Part shown: positions 34,742 through 45,689 of the stretch, one piece after another
Layout of the letters: each line of letters opens with the position of its first letter
Position numbering within the stretch: position 1 is the stretch's first letter
Assembly: GCA_021805565.1 (NCBI GenBank)
Contig: JAJZFA010000060.1
Coordinates: forward strand, 62,001-126,000
Reading direction: 5' to 3'
Source: Pseudomonadota bacterium
GTDB taxonomy: Bacteria; Pseudomonadota; Alphaproteobacteria; Acetobacterales; Acetobacteraceae
Length of the DNA: 64,000 bases
Notes under the pieces: generated by a model
Databases searched by the model: none
What the model was told of the DNA's origin: nothing
What the model saw: only the letters and a program-made list of their open reading frames with translations
Program-made: the position numbers and the translations under genes

Positions 34742-35860
34742 GTGACAGCCGGACCGCTTCGGGCCGCCATCGCCGGTATCGCCGGCCCGGCGCTGCTGGC
34801 GGAGGAGGCCGCACTGTTCCGGGCCTTCCCACCGGCCGGAGTCATCCTGTTCGCCCGCAACATCCAGGACCCGGCGCAGCTTACCGGCCTGATCGCCGCG
34901 CTTCGAACCGTTCTTCCCGCCACTGCCGACCTGATGATCGATCAGGAAGGCGGCCGTGTCGCCCGCCTGAAACCGCCCCACTGGCACGCCCACCCGCCCG
35001 CCGCGACGTTCGGTCGCCTGTTTGCGACCAACCCCGCGGCCGCCCTGCGGGCCGCGTGGCTGACCGGCGCGCTGATCGGGGAAGACTGCCGGACCGCCGG
35101 CTTTACCGTCGCTGCCGCCCCGGTGCTGGATCTCGCCGTCCCCGGTGCCCACGACGTCGTTGGCGATCGCGCGTTCGCCCGGCATCCCGCCATTGTCGCC
35201 CGCCTGGGCCAGAGCCTGGCCAACGGCCTGCTCGCGGCCGGAATCCTGCCCGTCTGCAAGCATGCCCCCGGCCACGGCCGGGCGCGGGCCGATAGCCATC
35301 TGGCCCTGCCCAGGGTGACCGGCAGCGGTCTGTCCGCGGACATCCGGCCGTTTGCGCTGAATGCCCTCCTGCCCTGGATGATGACGGCGCATATCGTGTA
35401 TGACGCGATCGATCCGTATCGTCCGGCAACCCTGTCGCCAACGGCGATAGAAACCGTTATTCGCGGCCGGATCGGCTTTCAAGGAGTTCTGGTGACCGAC
35501 GACCTCGCGATGAAGGCACTGTCCGGGCCACCGGCCGGTCTGGCGATCCAGGCATTGAACGCCGGCTGCGACGTGGCGCTGTATTGCAGCGGCGAGTTCG
35601 CGCCCACGCAAGACCTGCTGCGTACCTGCCCGGCACTGACACCGGCCGCCCTGCAACGCCTCGAAAACGGCCGGCATGCCGCGGCGAACCAGCGCCTGAC
35701 CCTGAATCCGGCGCTTTTGAACGCGGAACGGGAGCGGCTTCTAGTGTCCTGCCCCGTTGATTTGGCGCAGCTTGCGCCAAGGCAATGGGACCGGCAGGCC
35801 ACTGAAAACAAAAAGCTAGTGCCTTGCTTCCCCGACACAGCTAACAGTCAAAGTGGTTGA
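34742..35860 (+). CDS. nagZ: Beta-N-acetylhexosaminidase (NagZ) with a repeat-encoded tail
   Basis: This cytosolic GH3 enzyme releases GlcNAc from 1,6-anhydromuropeptides in peptidoglycan recycling. Motifs are LMIDQEGGRVARLKPP, the loop KHAPGHGRARADSH bearing the catalytic Asp-His pair, and nucleophile aspartate in LVTDDLAMKAL. The start is GTG 34742. The protein is 372 residues, but codons from about 334 onward are read through the inserted 133-base CTAG-bounded element, which supplies about 38 foreign residues and the stop. Without the element the frame would end CTA-GGA-TGA, giving 335 residues and an ATGA overlap with the next gene. Confidence 0.94.
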   Translation: MTAGPLRAAIAGIAGPALLAEEAALFRAFPPAGVILFARNIQDPAQLTGLIAALRTVLPATADLMIDQEGGRVARLKPPHWHAHPPAATFGRLFATNPAAALRAAWLTGALIGEDCRTAGFTVAAAPVLDLAVPGAHDVVGDRAFARHPAIVARLGQSLANGLLAAGILPVCKHAPGHGRARADSHLALPRVTGSGLSADIRPFALNALLPWMMTAHIVYDAIDPYRPATLSPTAIETVIRGRIGFQGVLVTDDLAMKALSGPPAGLAIQALNAGCDVALYCSGEFAPTQDLLRTCPALTPAALQRLENGRHAAANQRLTLNPALLNAERERLLVSCPVDLAQLAPRQWDRQATENKKLVPCFPDTANSQSG

Positions 35861-35873
35861 CGCAAGGCACTAG
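35741..35873 (+). repeat. CTAG-bounded palindromic element A (modules A1+A2), copy 1
   Basis: The element is 133 bases from CTAG to CTAG. Module A1 (35741-35818) begins CTAGTGTCCTGCC, has the core palindrome TTGGCGCAGCTTGCGCCAA and closes with GGCAGGCCACT and an A-rich tail. Module A2 (35815-35873) has inverted ends CTAGTGCCTTGC and GCAAGGCACTAG. Identical-length copies occur at 42325-42457 (inverted) and 44354-44486. It overlaps the 3' end of nagZ and supplies the leader of the M50 gene. Confidence 0.88.
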
Positions 35874-35874
35874 G

Positions 35875-36585
35875 ATGAACCGATTCCTGATCGATCTGGC
35901 CCTGGCGGTTGTCCCGGTCATCCTGGCGATCACGTTGCATGAGGCCGCGCACGGCTATGCCGCGCTCGCACTCGGCGACACCACCGCTCGCGACGCCGGC
36001 CGGCTGTCGCTCAATCCTGTCCGCCACATCGACCGTACCGGCACGATCCTGGTGCCCGGCTTTCTGCTGATCAGCCAGTTGCTGGTTCCGCCCCACAAGG
36101 TGTTTTTCATGTTCGGCTGGGCCAAGCCCGTGCCGATCGGGGCCTGGCGTTTCAAGAACCCCCGGCAGGGCATGGCGCTGGTCGCCGCCGCCGGCCCGCT
36201 GGCGAATTTCGTCCTGGCCTGGATGGCCGCGCTGGTCATCCCGATGGACGATTTCCCCAATGCCTCACAGGCCATTGGGCAGCAGTTTCTGCTGTATTTC
36301 ATGCTGTCCAACGTGGTGCTGGGCCTGTTCAACCTGCTGCCAATCCCGCCGCTGGACGGTGGCCGTATCGCGGTAGGCCTGCTGCCGCTGGAACTCGCCA
36401 AAATCTGGGCGAGAGTCGAAAAGGCGGGCATTTTCGTCGTCCTGCTAATTGTCTTCATCCTGCCCCGGATGATCGGTTTCGATCCGGTGGGTCAGGCGCT
36501 GAATCGGGTCCTGCCCTGGGCGTTCCGGACGCTGTTCTGGCTCGCCGGGCGCCATACCGGCGGTATCGATGGAAACTTCATCTGA
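35875..36585 (+). CDS. Site-2 protease family (M50) membrane metalloprotease
   Basis: This is an integral membrane zinc protease of the small rhomboid-sized M50 group. The 236-residue protein from ATG 35875 has several hydrophobic segments. The zinc motif is HEAAH in ITLHEAAHGYAALALGD, and a downstream LPIPPLDGGRI supplies the third ligand aspartate. The ATG lies directly after the CTAG end of repeat element A, whose last bases (CAAGG) are the only ribosome site. It overlaps scpA by 17 bases, so the unit runs nagZ-M50-scpA-scpB, common in alphaproteobacteria. Confidence 0.9.
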   Translation: MNRFLIDLALAVVPVILAITLHEAAHGYAALALGDTTARDAGRLSLNPVRHIDRTGTILVPGFLLISQLLVPPHKVFFMFGWAKPVPIGAWRFKNPRQGMALVAAAGPLANFVLAWMAALVIPMDDFPNASQAIGQQFLLYFMLSNVVLGLFNLLPIPPLDGGRIAVGLLPLELAKIWARVEKAGIFVVLLIVFILPRMIGFDPVGQALNRVLPWAFRTLFWLAGRHTGGIDGNFI

Positions 36586-37351
36586 CATCGCCAGACCTGA
36601 CCCGCCGTCCGGAAACCTTCTTCTAAGGCTGGAGGGGTTCGAAGGCCCCATGGACCTGCTGCTGGACCTCGCCCGGTCGCAAAAGGTCGATCTGGCGAAA
36701 ATCTCCATCCTGTCCCTGGTCGATCAGTATCTGGCGGTGATCGAAGGTGCCCGGCGCGTCCGGCTGGAACTCGCCGCCGACTGGCTGGTGATGGCGGCCT
36801 GGCTGACCTGGCTGAAATCCCGCCTGCTGGTCCCAGCGGCCGCCAACGACGACCTGGAAAGCGGCGAGCTGGCCGCCGAGGCGCTGGCGGCGCGCCTACG
36901 GGAAATGAACGTCATCCGCACCCTCGCTGCCTGGCTGAACGCCCGCCCCATTCTGGGACAGGACGTGTTCGCCCGTGGCGCGCCGGAAACCCATTATGAC
37001 TACGACCGGTCCCGCATCGCGATCGACGCCGGCCCGTTCGTCCGCGCGTATCTCGGCGCGATCCGGCGCGGCACCAAAACCACGCAATATGCACCGCGCG
37101 CCCTGACATTATGGACCGTCCAGGACGCGCTGCGCCGGCTGGCCCGCCTGATCGGCACGTTGCCGGACTGGACCACGCTGGAACACTTCCTGCCCGGCGA
37201 TCTGGACAGCCCGGCCGAACGCCGGGCGGCGCTGTCCAGCACGCTGCTGGCCAGCCTGGAAATGGCGCGCAACGGTACGATCCGGCTGCGCCAGGAAGAA
37301 CCTTTCGCGCCGATCCTGCTGCGTGGCGGCGACGGGGGCCGCGACGCATGA
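36569..37351 (+). CDS. scpA: Segregation and condensation protein A
   Basis: ScpA is the kleisin that bridges SMC heads in chromosome segregation. It has 260 residues. The N-terminal FEGPMDLLLDLARSQKVDLA is the classic ScpA signature, followed by SLVDQYLAVIE and LVMAAWLTWLKSRLLVP. The C-terminal winged helix ends near LLASLEMARNGTIRLRQEEP. It begins inside the end of the M50 gene and overlaps scpB by ATGA, so all are translated together. Confidence 0.96.
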   Translation: METSSDIARPDPPSGNLLLRLEGFEGPMDLLLDLARSQKVDLAKISILSLVDQYLAVIEGARRVRLELAADWLVMAAWLTWLKSRLLVPAAANDDLESGELAAEALAARLREMNVIRTLAAWLNARPILGQDVFARGAPETHYDYDRSRIAIDAGPFVRAYLGAIRRGTKTTQYAPRALTLWTVQDALRRLARLIGTLPDWTTLEHFLPGDLDSPAERRAALSSTLLASLEMARNGTIRLRQEEPFAPILLRGGDGGRDA

Positions 37352-37980
37352 GCGACACCCCGGTTCCGCCGCCGGCCGCCCCGCGCGAACCGGACGAGGA
37401 CTCGCTGCGGCTCGCCGAGGCCCTGGTGTTTTCCAGCGCCGCACCGGTCACCGCGCAAAGCCTGTCCAAAATACTGCCCGGCGATATCGCCGCCGATGCC
37501 GTGCTGGCCGCGTTGAAGGCGCGCTATGCAGGCCGTGGGGTGGAACTGACCGAGGCCGGCGGCGGCGTCATGTTCCGGTCCGCCCCAGATCTGGCGCCGC
37601 GGTTGCGCAAGATAATCGAAGTGCCGCGCCGCCTGCCCCGGGTCGCGATGGAAACACTGGCGATCGTCGCCTACCACCAGCCGGTGACACGGCCAGAGAT
37701 CGAACACATCCGTGGCACCGCCCTGTCCCAGCAAACCCTGGAGTCGCTGCTGGAGCTGAATCTGATCGCCCCGAAAGGCCGGCGGGAAACGCCTGGACGG
37801 CCGACCCTGTGGGGCACGACGCCGGAATTCCTGGCACATTTCGGACTGAAAGACCTGCGAGACCTACCCCGCCGGGACGACCTGCTGCTGGAAACCGCAC
37901 CGCCACGAACCGTGCCGGACACTATACCGCCCGACCTGCATCCGCCGCCCGACCTGCAAGGAACCCAGGATGAATCGTAG
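37348..37980 (+). CDS. scpB: Segregation and condensation protein B
   Basis: ScpB dimers bind ScpA in the SMC complex. The 210-residue protein starts at ATG 37348, whose ATGA overlaps the scpA stop. The frame is open upstream to 37111 but that part runs inside scpA. Two winged-helix domains are visible, with LRLAEALVFSSAAPV, VAMETLAIVAYHQPVTRPEI and GRPTLWGTTPEFLAHFGL, all conserved. The proline-rich C-terminal tail is poorly conserved in the family. It overlaps the next gene by 11 bases. Confidence 0.96.
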   Translation: MSDTPVPPPAAPREPDEDSLRLAEALVFSSAAPVTAQSLSKILPGDIAADAVLAALKARYAGRGVELTEAGGGVMFRSAPDLAPRLRKIIEVPRRLPRVAMETLAIVAYHQPVTRPEIEHIRGTALSQQTLESLLELNLIAPKGRRETPGRPTLWGTTPEFLAHFGLKDLRDLPRRDDLLLETAPPRTVPDTIPPDLHPPPDLQGTQDES

Positions 37981-38461
37981 AATACTGATAACCGGCGCCG
38001 CGATGTCGGCCGGCACCCTGATCCGGCCCGCCGCCGCCCAGGACGACGGCGGATCGCGGGCTTTAGCGGAGCGCTTCGCCGCAACGCTCAGCGATCACGA
38101 CATGGGTGCCTTCGCGGCCCTGTTCGCCGACGATTATGTCAATCGTCAGGTCAGCGCCGCCGCGCCGCCGCCGCCGCCCGGCAAATCGCCGAGGCAAGCA
38201 ACCGTGGCTTTCTTCGCGGCGCGTCTGGCCGGCATTCCCGACCTGCATGTCGCAATCGAGACGATCGTGGCGTCGCCCGGCAAGGTAGCGGCAAGTTTCG
38301 TCTATTCCGGCACCCATGGCGGCCCGTTGTATGGCATCGCGCCGACTGGCCGCGCCCTTCGCTTCACATCCTGCGATATTTTCACGGTTCGGAACGACCA
38401 GTTTGCCGAACACTGGGGCATGGGCGATATCGCCGGCGTACTGGCGCAAATCCGCGGCTGA
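37970..38461 (+). CDS. Exported SnoaL-like (ester cyclase family) protein
   Basis: The 163-residue protein has an N-terminal signal sequence (RRILITGAAMSAGTLIRPAAA, cleavage after AAAQ), possibly Tat type because of the RR pair. The mature part is a SnoaL-like, NTF2-like fold, with ALAERFAATLSDHDMGAFAALFADDY, then TVAFFAARLAGIPDLHV and the end AEHWGMGDIAGVLAQI. Members include polyketide cyclases and many ester-cyclase-like proteins of unknown substrate. It overlaps the end of scpB and is probably cotranscribed. Confidence 0.78.
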   Translation: MNRRILITGAAMSAGTLIRPAAAQDDGGSRALAERFAATLSDHDMGAFAALFADDYVNRQVSAAAPPPPPGKSPRQATVAFFAARLAGIPDLHVAIETIVASPGKVAASFVYSGTHGGPLYGIAPTGRALRFTSCDIFTVRNDQFAEHWGMGDIAGVLAQIRG

Positions 38462-38491
38462 CCGGCATTCGGCTTCTGGACCGGAGCCGGC

Positions 38492-40621
38492 CTATGCCGC
38501 CGTTCCGCACAACGGATACCGAACACCGCCGGTAACGTGAATGTCGAGACCGCCAACGCCGCCAACGAACAGCGGCTCGGGCAGGACCGCGTCGCCATCG
38601 GTCCAGCGATGCCCGTTATCCGGCTCATACGCATGAAAGCCCTGGCACAGCCGCGGATCGTCCGCTTCGATAACGACCGGCCACCGCCCCCGCCAGCCAA
38701 CGATGCGCCGGATCGCGACCCCAAGCGGGCGCGGATCGCGCGCCAGGCCGAGTTCGCCGGGAACGCCGGCGCGCGACACCAGACGCAGACTGGAAACGCC
38801 AGGCGGTAGGCGAAACCCATACACACCGTTGCGCTGGCGCTGCCCGTCCACGCGGCGCCCGTTCGCGATAAGATGCAGGTCCGGTTCGTCGGTCACGGGC
38901 ACCCCTGGCCGCGGCCCCGACCGGCCGAGCAGCCGACGCCAGACGGAATCGACGATGGGGCCGCCGGTTAGCACCGGCGCACACGGCGGTTGCGGCGGCA
39001 ACGTCCGGGCATCGTTACCGTTTTGGAACAGCCAACGGTTGCCGTCGTCGCGATAGCTTTCGGCCGGTGCGCCATTGGCCAGCAGCACGTCATGGGTCGC
39101 CAGTTCGATATGATAGACCGTGACTTCCTGGCCGCGGTCGTCCCACAGGACCGAACGATGGTTCACCAGGAACTCGGCTGGGATCAATACGCCATCCAGA
39201 TACAGCGCATGGCCTTTGGTGACGAACAGGTCGCGGTTTGGCACATTGTCGCCCAGCGCGCCCTTGCGGACGATCACCGGCGTGGCCGGCCCTCGCCGGC
39301 CAGTTGCCGCCAGTGCTTTGCCACGACCAATCCAGACCACGGGCCGGGCCTGTCCGGTCTGTGTGGAGACCATATCGCCAACCGCGAGGGACTGCACCGG
39401 AACCTCCCCGTCCGGCGTTGCGATCATGGTGTTCGGCAGGAAACATGCGACCAGACCGTACCCCAGAACGTTCAGTATCCGCAGGTCGGTGGTACTGACC
39501 GCCGAGACCGTCCCGGCGGCGCTATAGCCAAAGGCATCGCCCGGAACGGTGGCTGCCCAGTCGGCGACATCGGTTTTGTTGGCAACCGCGGACGGTATGG
39601 AAAACTGGTTCGTTACGGTCGTGCCATTATAGGAAAAATACGAATAGGAATTCAGGCCCGCAGCCGCGCTGGCCGCCGCGGTGGTGCTGTAACCGGTTGT
39701 GAACGGCTCATTGAGGACGCCGGCGGCCGACCCCGCGGCGGCCCCGGACGCGCCGTTGGCCGCCGTGTACCGGAACATGTCCAGAAGTGTGTAAACCCCG
39801 CCGGCGCCCCCGGTGGCGCTGCGTCCCAGCACCTCCGATATTTCATGCTCGAACAGACCGACCGCGTCGTATTGGCCGTTGACGGGCGTTGCCTGCGACC
39901 AAAAAAACGAACTCGCGTTGGCGACGATTCCGACGCTGCCGGCGGTCGATGTGTATCCCGATACCAACCCCAATGCCTGTGCTTCGGAGGTCGAGACGTT
40001 GAATAGTGCTCCGCCCGTCGGGTCCGTGGCCGGCAAGGAAGCGGCGGCCGCTTTCTGTACCGCCGACGTTGTATCCGCGGCCAGAACCGCCGCGCGAAGT
40101 TGGGAATAGGTATATTGATAGTCCAGGGTCAGGCTCCGGCCGATGCTGACCGTCCCGATCGGGGCGCCGCCCACCTCCCCCCAGCCGAAATTGATGTTCA
40201 GCGTCAGGTTGGAGGTGATTGTCGTCTGATAAAACCGCACCGCCGATTGTACGGCGCCGGTGTATTCGGCGTATAAGCTTGGATTGTACGCCGCGTTACC
40301 GACAGTATTCAGCGCGGTCACGCTGCTGTCGTAGGTAACATTGATGATCAGGCCGCCGGCCTGAGTTTGGCCGGTGACAGGTATGGGCGCCGTAGTGGAC
40401 GCCACACCCATGGGGGACACACCCCCGGCCAGCTGCGCCGCGCCGGTCGTCAGCACCGAACCGGACGCGGCTTCGGCCCAGGCAACAGCCGGGTTCAGCC
40501 CGTCCGGCGACGGGATCGGCGGATTGCCTGCGCTCGCGGTATCGTCTCCCGTCGAATCGTCTGGCAGTCCGTGCAAGCCGTGATGGCGAAAATCGGTGTT
40601 CATCCCGTTCATCCAGCGCAT
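38492..40621 (-). CDS. Secreted metalloprotease-like protein with Hint (hedgehog/intein) domain
   Basis: The 709-residue protein has no classical signal peptide, as usual for such secreted proteins. The first part (about 90-390) is a zincin-like domain with HEISEVLGR at 259-267, where the third ligand position is Glu instead of His. At C393 a Hint domain begins, CFLPNTMIATPDGEVPVQSL, with GHALYLDGVLIPAEFLVNH and an internal HDVLLANGAPAESY, the usual Hint_2 features. The C-terminal 200 residues form a further beta-rich domain (GFRLPPGVSSLRLVSRAGVP). Hint domains self-cleave at the leading cysteine, releasing the protease-like part. Alternative starts are at 40612 and 40603. Confidence 0.85.
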   Translation of the reverse strand: MRWMNGMNTDFRHHGLHGLPDDSTGDDTASAGNPPIPSPDGLNPAVAWAEAASGSVLTTGAAQLAGGVSPMGVASTTAPIPVTGQTQAGGLIINVTYDSSVTALNTVGNAAYNPSLYAEYTGAVQSAVRFYQTTITSNLTLNINFGWGEVGGAPIGTVSIGRSLTLDYQYTYSQLRAAVLAADTTSAVQKAAAASLPATDPTGGALFNVSTSEAQALGLVSGYTSTAGSVGIVANASSFFWSQATPVNGQYDAVGLFEHEISEVLGRSATGGAGGVYTLLDMFRYTAANGASGAAAGSAAGVLNEPFTTGYSTTAAASAAAGLNSYSYFSYNGTTVTNQFSIPSAVANKTDVADWAATVPGDAFGYSAAGTVSAVSTTDLRILNVLGYGLVACFLPNTMIATPDGEVPVQSLAVGDMVSTQTGQARPVVWIGRGKALAATGRRGPATPVIVRKGALGDNVPNRDLFVTKGHALYLDGVLIPAEFLVNHRSVLWDDRGQEVTVYHIELATHDVLLANGAPAESYRDDGNRWLFQNGNDARTLPPQPPCAPVLTGGPIVDSVWRRLLGRSGPRPGVPVTDEPDLHLIANGRRVDGQRQRNGVYGFRLPPGVSSLRLVSRAGVPGELGLARDPRPLGVAIRRIVGWRGRWPVVIEADDPRLCQGFHAYEPDNGHRWTDGDAVLPEPLFVGGVGGLDIHVTGGVRYPLCGTAA

Positions 40622-40680
40622 ACGAATCAGATCGTTCCCGCGGAACGCGAACCGGCTCGCATCTGCATGTCACAGCAATC

Positions 40681-40920
40681 TCACAAATTCGTGATATCGG
40701 GTAGAAAAAATTCAGCCCCCCCGGTGCGCCCGGCATGCAAAGACAGAAACAGCGACACGCGGCCGGACCTTGGGTGCGTTCGCACCAGCACCCGTGGCAT
40801 CGGCGCCATCGTCTCCGGTTCTTCCGGCGACCAGCCGGAAAACGCAATTGCCGGGCGCGAGAACAACTGCGTATGGTCGCGGATCGGGTCGTTCTGTTGT
40901 GCCTTCATCCGGTACACCAT
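40681..40920 (-). pseudogene. Remnant of a TauD/TfdA-family dioxygenase, C-terminal part
   Basis: A minus-strand frame of about 79 residues carries IRDHTQLFSRPAIAFSGWSP, then VLVRTHPRSGRVSLFLSLHAG, which is the usual C-terminal segment of alpha-ketoglutarate-dependent TauD/TfdA dioxygenases (LVRTHP..GR.SLYL..HAG). After HAG the frame diverges and stops at 40681. Upstream sequence to about 40990 has recognisable but frame-shifted remains. The N-terminal iron-binding HxD part is absent. No intact dioxygenase lies nearby. Confidence 0.5.
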
Positions 40921-41025
40921 GACGGTCGCCGCCGCCCGGACGGCGGAGACGCGGTTATGGTCCAGGAACGGCACAATTGCCGCGCTGGCCGAAGGATCGT
41001 TACAATACAAGGAAAGGCACGTCCG

Positions 41026-42207
41026 ATGATCCCGGCCAGCGACATCGATCCGTTCTGCACCGAATTCTTCGACGACCCGTATCCGGCGCACGCCGTACTG
41101 CGGGATGCCGGGCCGGTGGTGTATCTGTCGCGGTATGACATCCATGCCGTCGCGCGCTACGACGACGTGCGGGCGATGCTGATGGACTGGGACAGCTATA
41201 CCAGCGCGCGCGGCGTCGGCCTGTCCGACTTCGCCCGCGAAAAACCCTGGCGCCTGCCCAGCCTGCTGCTGGAAACCGATCCGCCTCTGCACGACCGGAC
41301 CCGCAAGCTGATGGACAAGGTGCTGTCGCCCGCCGCGATCCGCGGGCTGCGGGACGCCTTCGCCACCGCCGCCGATACGCTGATCGACACCCTTCTTGCT
41401 CGCGGCACGTTCGACGCCGTACCCGACCTGGCCGAGGCCTACCCGCTGACCGTCTTTCCCGACGCCGTTGGCATGCCGCCGGAAAACCGCCGCTTCCTGC
41501 TGCCCTATGGCAACATGGTGTTCAACAGCTTCGGCCCCCGCAACAGCTACTTCGAAACCGCGGTCGCCGACGCCGAACCCGTCCTGGCCTGGGTGCGGGC
41601 ACAAACGCGCCGCGATGCGCTGTCGGCCAGTGGCTTCGGTGCCGCCATCCACGCCGCGGCCGACGACGGCACCGTTTCGGAAGCGGAAGCCGAAGTCCTG
41701 GTCCGTTCGCTGCTGACCGCCGGTGTCGATACCACCGTCAACGGCCTGTGCGCCGCTGTGTATTGCCTGGCCCGCTTTCCGGCCGCGTTTCAGCGCCTGC
41801 GCGCCGACCCGTCGCTGGCCCGTGCCGCGTTCGAGGAAGCCGTGCGCCTGGAAAGCCCTGTCCAGACCTTCTTCCGCACCACCACGCGCGCGGTATCCAT
41901 CGGCGGCGAAACCGTCCCGGAGGGCACCAAGGTGCTGATGCTGCTGGGCGCGGCCAATCGCGACCCAAGGCGATGGGACCGACCGGACGACTATGACATC
42001 GCCCGCCGCAACGCCGGCCATGTCGGCTTCGGCACTGGCATTCATGGCTGCGTCGGCGCCGTCCTCGCCCGCCTGGAAGGCGAAGTCGTCCTTAACGCGC
42101 TGGTTCGGAAGGCCGCCGGACTCGAGATCGCCGGCGAACCCAAACGCCGCTACAACAACACGCTGCGCGGCATGGCCAGCCTGCCGGTACGCATCGTGGC
42201 GGCGTGA
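41026..42207 (+). CDS. Cytochrome P450, CYP199-like
   Basis: The 393-residue soluble bacterial P450 starts at ATG 41026, preceded by GGAAAGG. The frame extends upstream through the TauD remnant, which is not coding. Visible are the I-helix oxygen-binding motif LLTAGVDTTVNG, the K-helix motif FEEAVRLESP, TFFRTTTRAV, and the heme-binding FGTGIHGCVGAVLARLEGE with the axial cysteine. The opening DPFCTEFFDDPYPAHAVLRD and VVYLSRYD resemble the CYP199 family that demethylates para-substituted benzoates such as 4-methoxybenzoate. That would feed pobA, 13 kb away. No redox partner is adjacent. Confidence 0.9.
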   Translation: MIPASDIDPFCTEFFDDPYPAHAVLRDAGPVVYLSRYDIHAVARYDDVRAMLMDWDSYTSARGVGLSDFAREKPWRLPSLLLETDPPLHDRTRKLMDKVLSPAAIRGLRDAFATAADTLIDTLLARGTFDAVPDLAEAYPLTVFPDAVGMPPENRRFLLPYGNMVFNSFGPRNSYFETAVADAEPVLAWVRAQTRRDALSASGFGAAIHAAADDGTVSEAEAEVLVRSLLTAGVDTTVNGLCAAVYCLARFPAAFQRLRADPSLARAAFEEAVRLESPVQTFFRTTTRAVSIGGETVPEGTKVLMLLGAANRDPRRWDRPDDYDIARRNAGHVGFGTGIHGCVGAVLARLEGEVVLNALVRKAAGLEIAGEPKRRYNNTLRGMASLPVRIVAA

Positions 42208-42219
42208 CCACGGTGTTGC

Positions 42220-42328
42220 TGGCACCCCGAGTCTTTGATATTGCGGGTAGGCATCCCGCAGGCTGTCGCCCGGTAGAGGCTGCACCGAGCCGCAATATCA
42301 CCGCAATATCAAAGACGCGGGGCACTAG
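42220..42328 (+). repeat. CTAG-bounded palindromic element B, copy 1
   Basis: The inverted ends read GAGTCTTTGATATTGCGG on the left and CCGCAATATCAAAGACGCGG on the right, with a central hairpin around GGCATCCCGCAGGCTGT. The right boundary CTAG (42325-42328) is shared with element A copy 2. The left boundary CTAG is degraded. A direct copy is at 45579-45689. Confidence 0.85.
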
Positions 42329-42457
42329 TGCCTTGCGTCAACCATTTTGTCTGTTAGCTGTGCCGGAGAAGCAAGGCACTAGCTTTTTGTTTTCAGTGGC
42401 CGGCTGGTCCCATTGCCTTGGCGCAAGCTGCGCCAAGGCAATGGGGCAGGACACTAG
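42325..42457 (-). repeat. CTAG-bounded palindromic element A (modules A2+A1), copy 2
   Basis: This is the reverse complement of the 35741-35873 copy, again 133 bases from CTAG to CTAG. A2 occupies 42325-42382 and A1 occupies 42379-42457. It abuts element B through a shared CTAG and lies in the region between the P450 and the convergent LysR gene, about 45 bases from the LysR stop. Confidence 0.88.
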
Positions 42458-42501
42458 GATGCCTGCGCCGCTGGGTCAGGTTTGTTCGCAAGGCCCGGTC
42501 G

Positions 42502-43482
42502 TCACGCCCGATCGAAATAATCCGCTCGTTTGGAAATGTTTATCCCAGATATAGGACCGTGAGTCGTTCCGCTAACTTGAGACACCGAATACGCCGCCAA
42601 TCCCGGCGCTACTCGGGCGGCGAGCATGTCGACAAAGAGGCGCGTCTTGGCCGGGAGCAGGCGGCTCGGCATCAGGGCATAGACCGGGGCTGCACGCAGC
42701 ACCCAGTCGGGCAGCACCCGCTGCAATCGCCCGGCCTTCACGTCGGGGCCGACCATCGGTTCGTGCAAGGTGACGATGCCGAGGTCGAGCAGAGCCAGTT
42801 GCCGCATCAAGCCGAAATTGTTGATCATGACCGAACCGCCGACGGGCACTTCCACCGTCTCGTCATCGCGCGACAGGACCCAGACATCGGGCTGCGGCGC
42901 GTTCAGGTTTCGGATGACCGCGTGAGCGGAGAGTTCCTCCGGCCGCGTGGGCACGCCCACGCGCGCAAGGTGGGCGGGTGACGCGAAAAGGGTTGTCCGC
43001 AGGATTCCGAGATGGCGGGAGATAAGACTGGAATCCGGCTGCTGCCCGACGCGGAGCGCCAGGTCGTAGTTTTGCGCGATCAGATCGACCCGGTTTGGAT
43101 TGAGGTCGATCTCCAGCGTGACCTCCGGATAAAGCCGCGTGTAATCGGCGATAAGCGGCCCGAAATACAGGCTGGCCAATTCCACGGTGGTCGATATGCG
43201 AAGCCGGCCGCGAGGCTTGTCGGCCACCTCGCCCAGTTTCTCGTGGGCCACGCGGGCGGCTTCGACGATATCGCGGCATCGCTGGTAGTAGATCGCTCCG
43301 GCTTCGGTAAGTTCGATCGACCGAGTCGTTCGGTTAAACAAGCGTACGCCAACGGCCCGCTCCAGGTCCGCAATCCGGCGAGACAGTGTGGAATTGGGCA
43401 CTCCAAGCGATTCGGCCGCCCGCTTGAAACTCATCGCCCGGGCGACTTCCACGAAGAAGCCCATCTCGCGGAGGTTATCCAT
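42502..43482 (-). CDS. LysR-family transcriptional regulator
   Basis: The 326-residue regulator starts at ATG 43482 (MDNLREMGFFVEVARAMSFK). The open frame reaches 43689 but the extra part overlaps the divergent promoter. An N-terminal winged helix (RAAESLGVPNSTLSRRIADL) is followed by the linker helix and a periplasmic-binding-like effector domain (GRLRISTTVELASLYFGPLI). It diverges from the isochorismatase-like gene across 112 bases, so it probably controls that gene and itself. The effector is unknown. The group is that of LysR regulators often named DsdC/TrpI-like transcriptional activators. Confidence 0.92.
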   Translation of the reverse strand: MDNLREMGFFVEVARAMSFKRAAESLGVPNSTLSRRIADLERAVGVRLFNRTTRSIELTEAGAIYYQRCRDIVEAARVAHEKLGEVADKPRGRLRISTTVELASLYFGPLIADYTRLYPEVTLEIDLNPNRVDLIAQNYDLALRVGQQPDSSLISRHLGILRTTLFASPAHLARVGVPTRPEELSAHAVIRNLNAPQPDVWVLSRDDETVEVPVGGSVMINNFGLMRQLALLDLGIVTLHEPMVGPDVKAGRLQRVLPDWVLRAAPVYALMPSRLLPAKTRLFVDMLAARVAPGLAAYSVSQVSGTTHGPISGINISKRADYFDRA

Positions 43483-43594
43483 CGCATCATCCCATCCGTG
43501 GAATAGAGATATCCAAAACGCAGAATTCCTTCCTCCGGCGGGACGATGTAAATCTCTCATCCGACAACGCGTCAAGAGCCAAGAGGGAAACGTC

Positions 43595-44296
43595 ATGACT
43601 GCACTCGATCGTCGTACTTTGCTGGCCAGCGCCGCTCTTGTCTCCGTCGCGGCCGCTCTGCCGGGCGCCGCCTTCTCTGCAACCCACACTCAAAATGGAG
43701 CCGACCCCGTGACCGCCAAGCCCTATACCACCCAGAACAGCATCGTCATGCTCGTGGATCACCAGACCGGCACCATCGGTTGGGTGAAGTCGATCCCCAA
43801 AGAGACCGTCGTCACCAGTTGCCGCGTGCTAGCCAAAATGGCCATAGCCTATAATATGCCGCTGATCCTGACCACCACAGTGGAGCAACAGGTTGGGCTG
43901 ACCATCGAGGATCTCCAGGAAATCGCGCCTAAGGCGTTCGCCAACCGTTACGCGCGTGGCGGTCAGCTCGACTGCTGGGACGATGAACGGCTGCGCGACG
44001 GAGTCGCCAAGCTCGGTCGCAAGAAAACCGTCATGGCGGGGCTCACCACCGATATCTGTCTTTACTGGGCCGCAACGAGCGCGCTTAAGCTCGGTTACGA
44101 AGTTTTGGTGGTCGCCGACGCTTGCGGTACAACGAGCACCCAAGGCGATGAGATGACCTATGCTCGCCTGCGCAAGGCCGGCGCGGAGATCACCGTTGTG
44201 AACCAGATTACCACGGAGCTCGCCAACGACTTCTCCCGTCCTGAGGACCAAAAGGCCCAGAAGATCATGGGCGATGAGATCATCTCCAAGCTCTAG
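43595..44296 (+). CDS. Exported isochorismatase-like hydrolase (Tat signal)
   Basis: The 233-residue protein starts at ATG 43595 after GAGGG. An N-terminal Tat-like signal (DRRTLLASAALVSVAAAL, ending AFSA) targets it to the periplasm. The isochorismatase-like cysteine hydrolase fold follows: catalytic aspartate in VMLVDHQTG, lysine in LGRKKTVMAG and nucleophile cysteine in TTDICLYWAA. It is similar to YcaC-type hydrolases of unknown substrate. Its stop TAG is the first CTAG of the adjacent repeat array (44293-44296). Regulation by the divergent LysR gene is inferred. Confidence 0.87.
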   Translation: MTALDRRTLLASAALVSVAAALPGAAFSATHTQNGADPVTAKPYTTQNSIVMLVDHQTGTIGWVKSIPKETVVTSCRVLAKMAIAYNMPLILTTTVEQQVGLTIEDLQEIAPKAFANRYARGGQLDCWDDERLRDGVAKLGRKKTVMAGLTTDICLYWAATSALKLGYEVLVVADACGTTSTQGDEMTYARLRKAGAEITVVNQITTELANDFSRPEDQKAQKIMGDEIISKL

Positions 44297-44357
44297 TGGT
44301 CCGATGCCAACGCCCACTTCAGGGCGTTGGCTGAATCGGCCCACAAAATCAGGCTAG
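44293..44357 (+). repeat. CTAG-bounded palindromic element C, copy 1
   Basis: It is 65 bases from CTAG to CTAG. It has a strong hairpin, CCGATGCCAACGCC against GGCGTTGGCTGAATCGG, then an A-rich tail before the closing CTAG. The first CTAG contains the isochorismatase stop codon; the last is shared with element A copy 3. A near-identical direct copy is at 44483-44546. Confidence 0.85.
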
Positions 44358-44486
44358 TGTCCTGCCCCATCGATTTGGCGCAGCTTGCGCCAAAACAATG
44401 GGACCAGCAGGCCACTGAAAACAAAAAACTAGTGCCTTGCTTCTCCGGCACAGCTAACAGGCAAACCGGTTGACGCAAGGCACTAG
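44354..44486 (+). repeat. CTAG-bounded palindromic element A, copy 3
   Basis: It is 133 bases, same orientation as the 35.7 kb copy, with A1 at 44354-44432 and A2 at 44429-44486. It sits exactly between the two direct copies of element C and shares a CTAG with each. Confidence 0.88.
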
Positions 44487-44546
44487 TAATCCGATGCCAA
44501 CGCCACTTCAGGGCGTTGGCTGAATCGGCCCACAAAATCGGGCTAG
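44483..44546 (+). repeat. CTAG-bounded palindromic element C, copy 2
   Basis: It is 64 bases and nearly identical to 44293-44357, with one base shorter arms and a few substitutions. It shares boundary CTAGs with element A (left) and element D (right). Confidence 0.85.
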
Positions 44547-44589
44547 TGCTCTGACCCCCGCTGTATCTTCTGAAAGTGTCAGAGCACTA
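44543..44589 (+). repeat. CTAG-bounded palindromic element D
   Basis: It begins CTAGTGCTCTGAC and ends GTCAGAGCACTA, an 11-base inverted repeat around a loop with GCTGTATCTTCTG. The right end reads CTAC, a one-base loss of CTAG. It lies about 30 bases before the pirin start. Confidence 0.75.
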
Positions 44590-44618
44590 CCTTGGCTCCA
44601 ATCGCCAGCGAGGCCACT

Positions 44619-45491
44619 ATGCGGCATCCAGGAAATCCTGCTCCAGAAATCGGCGCGCTTCGTTCCATCGAAGCGCGCGTGGCGGGCCGGCAGCATGGCC
44701 CGATCTCCCGGCTCATAAGTCCGGGCGATCTAGGGGAGCGACTAAAGCCTTTTATCTTCCTCGACTTCTTCAATGCGGAGATCGGGCCGGGCTTCGGGTT
44801 TGGAATGCACCCTCACTCCGGCATCGCCACACTCACCTGGCAGCCGGGCAGCGATGTTCGCTATCGGGATACGACCGGTAAGACCGGCGTCCTGAAAGCG
44901 GGCGGGCTTGAATGGATGAATGCGGGGGGCGGCGCCTGGCACCAGGGATCGCTCCTTGGGCACGGCCGGGTCACGGGCTTCCAACTCTGGGTGCCGATGC
45001 CGCCGGGGATAGAGGACGGCCCCTCGTTCGGACAGTACGTCTCGCCGGATGAGGTCCTGGACGAGCAAATTCCCGGAGGGTCCATCAAGGTCTTGCTCGG
45101 ATCGATGCAGGATGGGGACGCCGTCCGCCGAAGCCCGATCGAATCCCATCACGACATGAACTACTTCGTGGTGACGCTAGAGGCGGGCGCCGTGTTGCGG
45201 TATTCCCCGCCTCGGGCGCACGATGTGGCTTGGGCGTTCGGCTTCGAAGGGGCCGCCGTCCTTCAAGGCGAACCTTCCCGGGGCGATCTATTGGTGTTCG
45301 GAAACTCTGGCGCCATCGAAATCGGCGCGTCCGGCGAACCCGCACGCGTTTTACTAGGGACGGCCAAACGCTACGCTCATCCCTTGGTCCTGGGTCCGAG
45401 TTCAGTGCACTCCAACGCGAACTCGCTCGCCAGGGGCGCCCAGCGTATTCAGTCCTTGCTCGAAGAGATCACTTCGAAAGGGCCTCTATAG
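44619..45491 (+). CDS. Pirin family protein
   Basis: This is a bicupin protein of 290 residues from ATG 44619, with GCGAGG six bases upstream. A TTG at 44592 extends the frame by nine residues but lies against the repeat. The pirin metal site is visible: FGMHPHSGIATLTW near residue 70 and the later WMNAGGGAWHQG, with histidines and glutamate binding iron. The C-terminal cupin contains PPRAHDVAWAFGFEG. Bacterial pirins include quercetinase-like and redox sensor proteins, but function here is unknown. It forms an accessory segment with the LysR and isochorismatase genes. Confidence 0.88.
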   Translation: MRHPGNPAPEIGALRSIEARVAGRQHGPISRLISPGDLGERLKPFIFLDFFNAEIGPGFGFGMHPHSGIATLTWQPGSDVRYRDTTGKTGVLKAGGLEWMNAGGGAWHQGSLLGHGRVTGFQLWVPMPPGIEDGPSFGQYVSPDEVLDEQIPGGSIKVLLGSMQDGDAVRRSPIESHHDMNYFVVTLEAGAVLRYSPPRAHDVAWAFGFEGAAVLQGEPSRGDLLVFGNSGAIEIGASGEPARVLLGTAKRYAHPLVLGPSSVHSNANSLARGAQRIQSLLEEITSKGPL

Positions 45492-45578
45492 TCGATGACC
45501 TTGGCAGACAATTGGGCGCTCTAAAAATCAAGGCCGGCTGCCCGCTCTGCAGCGCTAAGAGACCATCCGCTTTGAACG

Positions 45579-45689
45579 CTAGTACCCCGAGTCTTTGATA
45601 TTGCGGGGTAGGCATCCCACAGGCCGTCGCCCGGTAGAGGCTGCACCGGGCCGCAATATCACCGCAATATTAAAGACGCGGGACACTAG
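45579..45689 (+). repeat. CTAG-bounded palindromic element B, copy 2
   Basis: It is about 111 bases from CTAG to CTAG, same orientation as the copy at 42220-42328. The left arm reads GAGTCTTTGATATTGCGG and the right arm CCGCAATATTAAAGACGCGG. The right CTAG holds the stop codon of the adjacent endonuclease-like gene. The two B copies bracket the LysR-isochorismatase-pirin segment. Confidence 0.85.

Follow-up and report, generated by a model that had tools for sequence, protein, structure and literature searches.

CTAG-bounded two-hairpin repeats of Acetobacteraceae as probable miniature transposons of the IS630 type

The stretch of 64,000 nucleotides analysed here (the window; G000:C32:62001-126000, from contig JAJZFA010000060.1) belongs to an Acetobacteraceae genome of 4.49 Mb in 64 contigs and carries a family of short hairpin-forming modules, most of them bounded by the tetranucleotide CTAG. 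Direct reading of the letters and a repeat search recover the five module types of the original prediction (A1, A2, B, C and D), with the A1+A2 composite present three times at 133 bp each and B and C twice each. Unit A copy 1 (35741..35873, plus strand) consists of hairpin 1 with an A-rich tail (A1, 35741-35819) followed by hairpin 2 (A2, 35816-35873), and lies between nagZ and an M50 peptidase gene (names assigned by eye). Copy 2 lies on the minus strand (42325..42457, with A2 at 42325-42382 and A1 at 42379-42457), and its CTAG at 42325 is also the right border of module B copy 1 (42219..42328, plus strand), whose left border is CTGG. Four modules then follow one another on the plus strand: module C copy 1 (44293..44357), whose left CTAG includes the TAG stop codon of an upstream isochorismatase-like gene (labelled by eye); unit A copy 3 (44354..44486), flanked by two C modules with one CTAG common to each; module C copy 2 (44483..44546), the tailed hairpin of a C+D unit; and module D (44543..44590), its symmetric hairpin, with CTAC as the right border. 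Module B copy 2 (45579..45689, plus strand) runs from CTAG to CTAG. The three A copies, each measured from CTAG to CTAG, are 92-93% alike and hold an inner third CTAG at 35816, 42379 and 44429; the B modules are 110 and 111 bp long, the C modules 65 and 64 bp, and D 48 bp. Touching modules do share a single CTAG at 42325, 44354, 44483 and 44543, as had been proposed, and most borders are indeed CTAG, with the start of B copy 1 and the end of D as exceptions.

CTAG is depleted in the window (32 occurrences against 60.7 expected from shuffles), and 13 of the 32, assigned by hand, stand at module borders. The pattern CTAGTG-N20-50-CACTAG is found three times, each time as an A2 hairpin, against 0.01 expected. 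A search of the whole genome for each module finds nine full-length copies of unit A, 92-100% alike, only the two window copies of B, and three copies of C, the third at C37:61549 and followed by its own D. Because all nine full copies carry A1 and A2 together, these make up one 133-bp unit, and since the C at C37:61549 has its own D, C+D is a second two-part unit; A1, A2, C and D exist as first described, but in this genome they are parts of two single units rather than separate modules. The linker GGCCACTGAAAACAAA, allowing up to three mismatches, occurs at 39 places in the same genome against 12 for a reversed control. With 0-1 mismatch it occurs at 14 places, namely the nine A copies and five elements with other stems (judged by eye), one of which (L011) is without a clear hairpin 2. 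Unit A is short, multicopy and transposase-free, as an IS630-derived miniature inverted-repeat transposable element (MITE) should be. The earlier statement that no transposase lies nearby agrees with the lack of any DDE_3 match on the window's contig, other transposase families not having been searched for in the window.

The unit is widespread among Acetobacteraceae. A pattern search over 193 genomes (the window's own included) for the hairpin-1 core GCAGGCCACTGAAAACAAA, with up to two mismatches, gives matches in 31 genomes and a maximum of 125 copies in genome G095; the reversed pattern, used as a control, gives 0-1 matches per genome, and several single-match genomes among the 31 look like chance (L056, L079-L082). 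An exact 28-base linker is found in 44 stretches from Rhodopila, Acidisphaera sp. S103, other Acetobacteraceae or Rhodospirillales, and metagenome-assembled genomes of Proteobacteria. A 19-mer of the linker also occurs on two IMG/VR viral contigs (L375, L376). From 189 anchors, 151 distinct hairpin-1 elements were obtained, of which 42 were dropped and 109 retained by a filter on their ends (right end within one mismatch of CACTAG, inner border within two of CTAGTG); L036 was excluded by eye as a chance match, and L068, which resembles a lone hairpin 1, and L080, which resembles a chance match, were kept among the 109. The lengths of these units cluster at 133 bp (41 units), 122 bp (18) and 111 bp (17). 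CTAG is the left tetramer in 69, the right in 73 and both in 51; the outermost base is C on the left side of 96 units and G on the right side of 104. These counts are to be read with the knowledge that the filter itself favours such borders.

The order within a unit is CTAG, hairpin 1 (a variable stem with a near-invariant inner core), an A-rich tail, CTAG, hairpin 2, CTAG. In the tailed hairpin the left end folds back on an inner copy of itself, followed by the A-rich tail and the inner CTAG; in the symmetric hairpin the two ends stand nearly back to back. A hairpin-2-type end follows hairpin 1 at 124 of 149 hairpin-1 sites, and the 25 sites without one include tandem copies of hairpin 1 (L078, L249, L286), cases in which another CTAG module comes after hairpin 1 (L147, L152), two copies of unit A whose right end is mutated (L003, L008), and sites that are decayed or due to chance. 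No autonomous element whose left end is hairpin 1 is among the 25. L255 (G089:C273) was considered as such an element and rejected, being a different IS630 nested in the hairpin-2 loop of a unit; that IS630 is itself interrupted by another two-hairpin unit. In genome G095, 30 loci hold 41 distinct segments running from CTAG to CTAG over 35-140 bp, among them symmetric hairpins with CTAGAGC ends and two more hairpins of the tailed kind that also end in CTAGAGC.

This anatomy raises the alternative that an HUH enzyme (of the IS200/IS605, RAYT or IS91 type) mobilises the tailed hairpin in single-stranded form, in the manner of repetitive extragenic palindromic (REP) sequences, REPINs or Helitron ends. 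Such a route would suit the tailed hairpins of one layout (an A-rich tail of about 9-12 bases, then CTAG) found in four different units, the tandem arrays of hairpin 1, and the occasional switch from hairpin 1 to a different module. It sits poorly with the outer ends, which are IS630-like, and with the hairpin-2-type end that so regularly follows hairpin 1. The module-rich genomes G095, G089, G090, G022, G099, G106 and G014 lack the Y1 transposase (PF01797), and among the 21 genomes with at least three copies this enzyme is found only in G000, G065 and G094; the Y2 (IS91-type) enzyme is absent from nine of 13 genomes tested, the window's own genome and G095 included, and present in G022, G014, G025 and G106. 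We set aside both Y1/RAYT and IS91-type mobilisation because the enzymes are missing from most module-rich genomes, and consider the whole alternative very improbable. The one IS200-type Y1 transposase of the window's genome lies at G000:C58:172880-173236 (L090).

The stems of the hairpins covary. When 18 diverse units are compared, 95.2% of the cells of a 27-pair structure are paired, and 11 of the 27 pairs show changes on both sides, a number reached in 2 of 500 shuffles; the covariation score of the structure is 0.313 against 0.141 in shuffles, with none of the 500 as high (a control that kinship can inflate), and sliding the structure gives 0.071 at most. The mean folding z of 35 representatives is -7.4, with 34 of them below -2. 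Among the 109 units an inner CTGG is paired with a right CCAG in 7 of 24 against 4 of 85 (p = 0.002), mainly in G095, G089 and G106; this border change is inverted, not direct. Another reading is that the units are RNA or DNA structures kept by the cell (messenger RNA stabilisers, attenuators or small RNAs) whose mobility is past. The strong covariation and folding favour this, as do the co-varying border and the hairpin-1 core (e.g. window 35794-35812), which is near invariant across genera while the adjoining stems vary freely. We nonetheless regard it as unlikely: presence is patchy (31 of 193 genomes), the sole site compared between species (35741) is unshared, and symmetric change can also arise from template switching in palindromes. 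Against it, and against the possibility raised at the outset that the modules are parts of known RNA genes, stands an Rfam search that gives no match at the gathering score in the window; the same search on seven loci gives five matches, all far below gathering.

The ends of the modules lead instead to the insertion sequence (IS) family IS630, and we conclude that the hairpin repeats are very probably miniature transposons that use an IS630-type (Tc1/mariner superfamily) enzyme, insert in CTAG and stack. A search of unit L069 against plasmids returns a single record, in which 26 of 26 bases match the right end of an annotated IS630 transposase gene of Roseomonas mucosa. The stop codon of this gene is the TAG of the end CTAG, the left end of the element looks worn, and the transposase has a match in 71 of the 193 genomes. 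Full IS630 elements in related bacteria are about 1,130-1,200 bp long and CTAG-bounded, with ends that read CTAG followed by TGTCC, TGCTCTGA, TACCC or TGG, and the same starts after CTAG are present in A1, D, B and C. The start of module D, CTAGTGCTCTGAC, resembles the right IS630 end of L119 and the left one of L125. Scored by the best match out of 12 bases against 34 IS630 ends, the 15 inward module ends, among which those of the three A copies and of the two B and two C copies are not independent, reach 8-11 with a mean of 9.2 (at least 9 in 11 of the 15). The 38 control faces of non-module CTAGs score no higher than 8 (8 in 2 of the 38), and the 11 outward module faces no higher than 7. 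The NCBIfam IS630 model NF033545 (cut-off 100 bits) recognises seven complete transposases at 236-285 bits, all of which carry Pfam DDE_3; a partial transposase of the CTAGAGC type (L208) scores 39.5 bits, under the cut-off. Neither unit A nor a CTAGAGC stack has a match among plasmids, and C+D has three weak ones (E 0.02-0.3). Insertion of the IS630 family into TA has been established in vitro for ISY100 (PMC2170065), and the title of Tenzen and Ohtsubo 1991, cited in the same paper, names a preference of IS630 for TA in CTAG.

The original prediction of a MITE-like, non-autonomous family that inserts at and shares CTAG is well supported, apart from some copies without CTAG ends and from empty sites that do not read CTAG, and what is not supported is its suggested source, the IS5 group: the matching ends belong to IS630-family elements, IS5 itself not having been searched for. 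That IS5- or IS701-group elements, with their 4-bp YTAR duplication, moved the modules is most improbable, neither group having been searched for. The argument for them is MITEPsy1 of Pseudomonas syringae, a 100-bp MITE shown to move, which the cited passages of PMC3189936 place at CTAG or YTAA with duplication of these 4 bp and derive, with a query over the IS5 assignment, from ISPsy2; its 4-bp duplication and 18-base terminal repeats set it apart from the IS630 reading preferred here. Among the commonest border tetramers of the 109 units, TTAG and CTAA are uncommon and TTAA does not figure, again under a filter that favours CTAG.

The copy at 35741 can be compared with its empty site. In a survey of 33 genomes of the genus (the window's own included), 32 matched and 29 relatives were read at the junction; unit A copy 1 is absent at the orthologous junction in all 29. 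The spacing of the flanks corresponds to exactly a 4-bp site in 16 relatives and comes within 3 bp of this in 25, and the other four have spacings longer by 15, 17, 20 and 66 bp, none near the 129 bp that the element would add. Removal of the copy in silico leaves CGG CTT CTA GGA TGA, which restores both the nagZ stop and the overlapping M50 start ATG. In the window itself the nagZ frame is without its stop and continues into the element over 35741-35819. The nagZ product of several relatives ends in RLLA or similar right at the junction.

The way in which such units may move can be outlined as follows. The enzyme would be a DDE transposase of the IS630 type that works in trans, encoded by another element or by one that has since disappeared. 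It would bind the ends (CTAGTGTCC, CTAGTGCTCTGA, CTAGTACCC or CTAGTGG), excise the unit and insert it at the TA of a CTAG, duplicating the TA. Each insertion would add new CTAG targets at the borders of the unit, and intergenic units would offer safe landing sites for further units. End-to-end stacking with one CTAG per junction would then arise because units bring CTAG targets into a CTAG-poor genome. Sharing of CTAG extends to an IS630 copy at locus L319, where the right CTAG of a unit is the start of a CTAGAGC-type IS630 that runs to the contig end, and where the gene to the left of the unit stops with the TAG of the unit's left CTAG. In G095 many units adjoin CTAGAGC modules.

Several observations weigh against movement by an IS630-type enzyme at CTAG. 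A DDE_3 search of the window's own genome finds two genes, no close transposase and, by eye, no CTAGTG ends, so that an IS with terminal repeats beginning CTAGTG, which the original prediction proposed to look for, has its counterpart in the CTAG-bounded IS630 elements of related genomes but not in this one; the gene listed against the query transposase is 26% alike and of another group. (The two IS630-like genes of another group lie at G000:C41:280-708 and G000:C15:1614-2042, L052 and L053.) Genome G095, for all its 125 copies, has one full IS630-like gene, which is of the CTAGAGC type with right end GGCTCTAG. A strong relative of the query transposase (E no greater than 1e-60) is found in 5 of the 21 genomes with at least three copies and in 19 of 97 other family members (counted by hand); this transposase subgroup therefore does not predict copy number. 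The end type of A2, CTAGTGCCTTGC, is on no full IS630 seen here. The hairpin-1 core is in no IS630 end seen here and has no RNA match, and a pure terminal-repeat model does not account for it. At the empty site, the comparison of orthologous loci bears out the absence of the element and the clean spacing but not the expected target, as none of the 29 relatives reads CTAG; the nearest read CTGG (L176, L177, L179) and CTGA (L174), one or two substitutions away, and a prior substitution, e.g. a synonymous change of CTG to CTA, has therefore to be assumed. A gain of 129 bp over a site of 4 bp fits insertion at the TA of CTAG, and fits duplication of TA or of 4 bp equally. Given no matching transposase in the window's genome and a copy number independent of this transposase, mobilisation by an IS630-type enzyme would have to be in trans or past. 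A DDE_3 gene of one sort or another is present in 11 of 12 module-rich genomes.

The IS630 elements that share ends with the units carry a further signature, a placement of GANTC, the methylation site of CcrM. GANTC is depleted in the window (125 occurrences against 263 expected). In 17 IS630 elements, 34 GANTC sites fall in the 34 ends of 45 bases, or 22.2 per kb, against 0.64 per kb inside the same elements and 1.97 in their flanks. A table of ends was made from 12 of 31 IS630 loci of related genomes and 11 plasmid loci, all with two clear ends (n = 23), to which five related-genome elements were later added (n = 28); omitted were L139, L233, L234 and L391, in each of which one end is not clear, L208 and L214, which are of the CTAGAGC type, and loci that are cut or fragmentary. 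Of these 28 alphaproteobacterial elements, whose loci lie within the ranges L114-L138, L235-L238 and L390-L397, 26 have GANTC at offset 10 of one end and not of the other: 22 of the first 23 have it at one end, none at both and one (L235) at neither, and four of the five added elements have it at one end, with L125 at neither. Reducing the 23 to one element per cluster of similar ends leaves 13 of 14 with the one-end placement (p = 0.003 for the arrangement). The site occurs in the 23 only at offsets 10, 23-25 and 32-36, and its middle base in 22 alphaproteobacterial elements varies (A in 11, T in six, C in three and G in two). Nine relatives from betaproteobacteria, gammaproteobacteria and Actinobacteria have GANTC in both ends (five) or in neither (four), always with G in the middle, and the one-end placement in none.

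Enrichment of GANTC in the ends is not in itself proof of adaptation to CcrM, since non-alphaproteobacterial ends are equally rich. In a control run they hold 18.5 sites per kb against 3.7 inside, and alphaproteobacterial ends 13.7 per kb (a figure that includes two elements with wrongly placed ends) against 0.6 inside. The non-alphaproteobacterial ends are GANTC-rich because many read CTGAGTC, and GAGTC is in both ends of four Actinobacteria and one Cupriavidus. The site is therefore partly ancestral, and what is specific to alphaproteobacteria is the one-end pattern and the free middle base alone. Among the units, GANTC is present in 70 of 109, in 68 of them at offset 10 from the right end. 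The window has GANTC sites in B and C (42229, 44333, 44522, 45589) and none in its A copies or in D. The one-end pattern suggests, short of showing it, cell-cycle gating, in which only newly replicated, half-methylated copies would be active. Dam methylation gates IS10 in a comparable way. We put forward only tentatively, as a possibility with the balance against it, that this alphaproteobacterial IS630 group and its MITEs keep a CcrM site at one end and that their transposition is tied to the cell cycle. A literature search, judged by titles and the beginnings of abstracts, found no paper on CcrM control of IS630.

Miniature transposons of this kind are already known; it is the two-hairpin design and the conserved cell-cycle methylation site at one end that look new, and a literature search on MITEs or palindromes of Acetobacteraceae and on IS630 with CTAG, judged in the same way, found no paper describing these units. 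RIME and Bru-RS of Rhizobiales have a two-palindrome layout and are likewise intergenic palindromic repeats of alphaproteobacteria, here compared by description only. Among known systems, as described in the cited parts of the sources, RUP is nearest in mechanism and CIR nearest in anatomy. RUP of Streptococcus pneumoniae, a 107-bp MITE proposed to be moved by IS630-Spn1, resembles the present units in being non-coding and about 110 bp long, with terminal TA and IS630-family ends (PMC2229807, PMC3049150). It is a single unit with a 9-bp inverted repeat, whereas here there are two hairpins, an A-rich linker, an inner CTAG and several end types; the CTAG target, the end-to-end stacking and the lack of a resident matching IS in the window's genome are also unlike RUP. 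REPIN/RAYT systems and REPs tagged with GTAG or CGTC share with the units paired palindromes in high copy, often clustered (PMC3116915, PMC3733652), but the present units have IS630-like ends and no GTAG tag as a rule (GTAG is the left tetramer in 3 of 109, CTAG in 69), and Y1 enzymes are missing from most module-rich genomes. CIR, from Caulobacter and other alphaproteobacteria, has a length of about 110 bp, two hairpin arms with a linker, TA termini and a conserved GANTC (PMC2229807), and the arms, linker and termini are all found in the units described here, a likeness drawn by description only. The GANTC of CIR is said to lie at or in a terminal loop and that of the units lies 10 bases from the outer end; 70 of the 109 units hold the site, and A and D of the window are without it. 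The review PMC2229807 calls for further information on the movement of CIR elements. That CIR elements are themselves IS630-derived MITEs is a conjecture that we hold with the same reserve as the CcrM proposal; if true, it would account for the GANTC of these repeats as well as for the unsettled manner of their movement.

For Acetobacteraceae, IS630 elements with CTAG ends would provide a concrete source for widespread palindromes, and stacking would have the simple reason that the element brings along the rare site that it targets. Should the one-sided CcrM site prove functional, these elements would be a case of CcrM-gated transposition. The movement of two-armed repeats such as CIR, together with their methylation sites, becomes testable.

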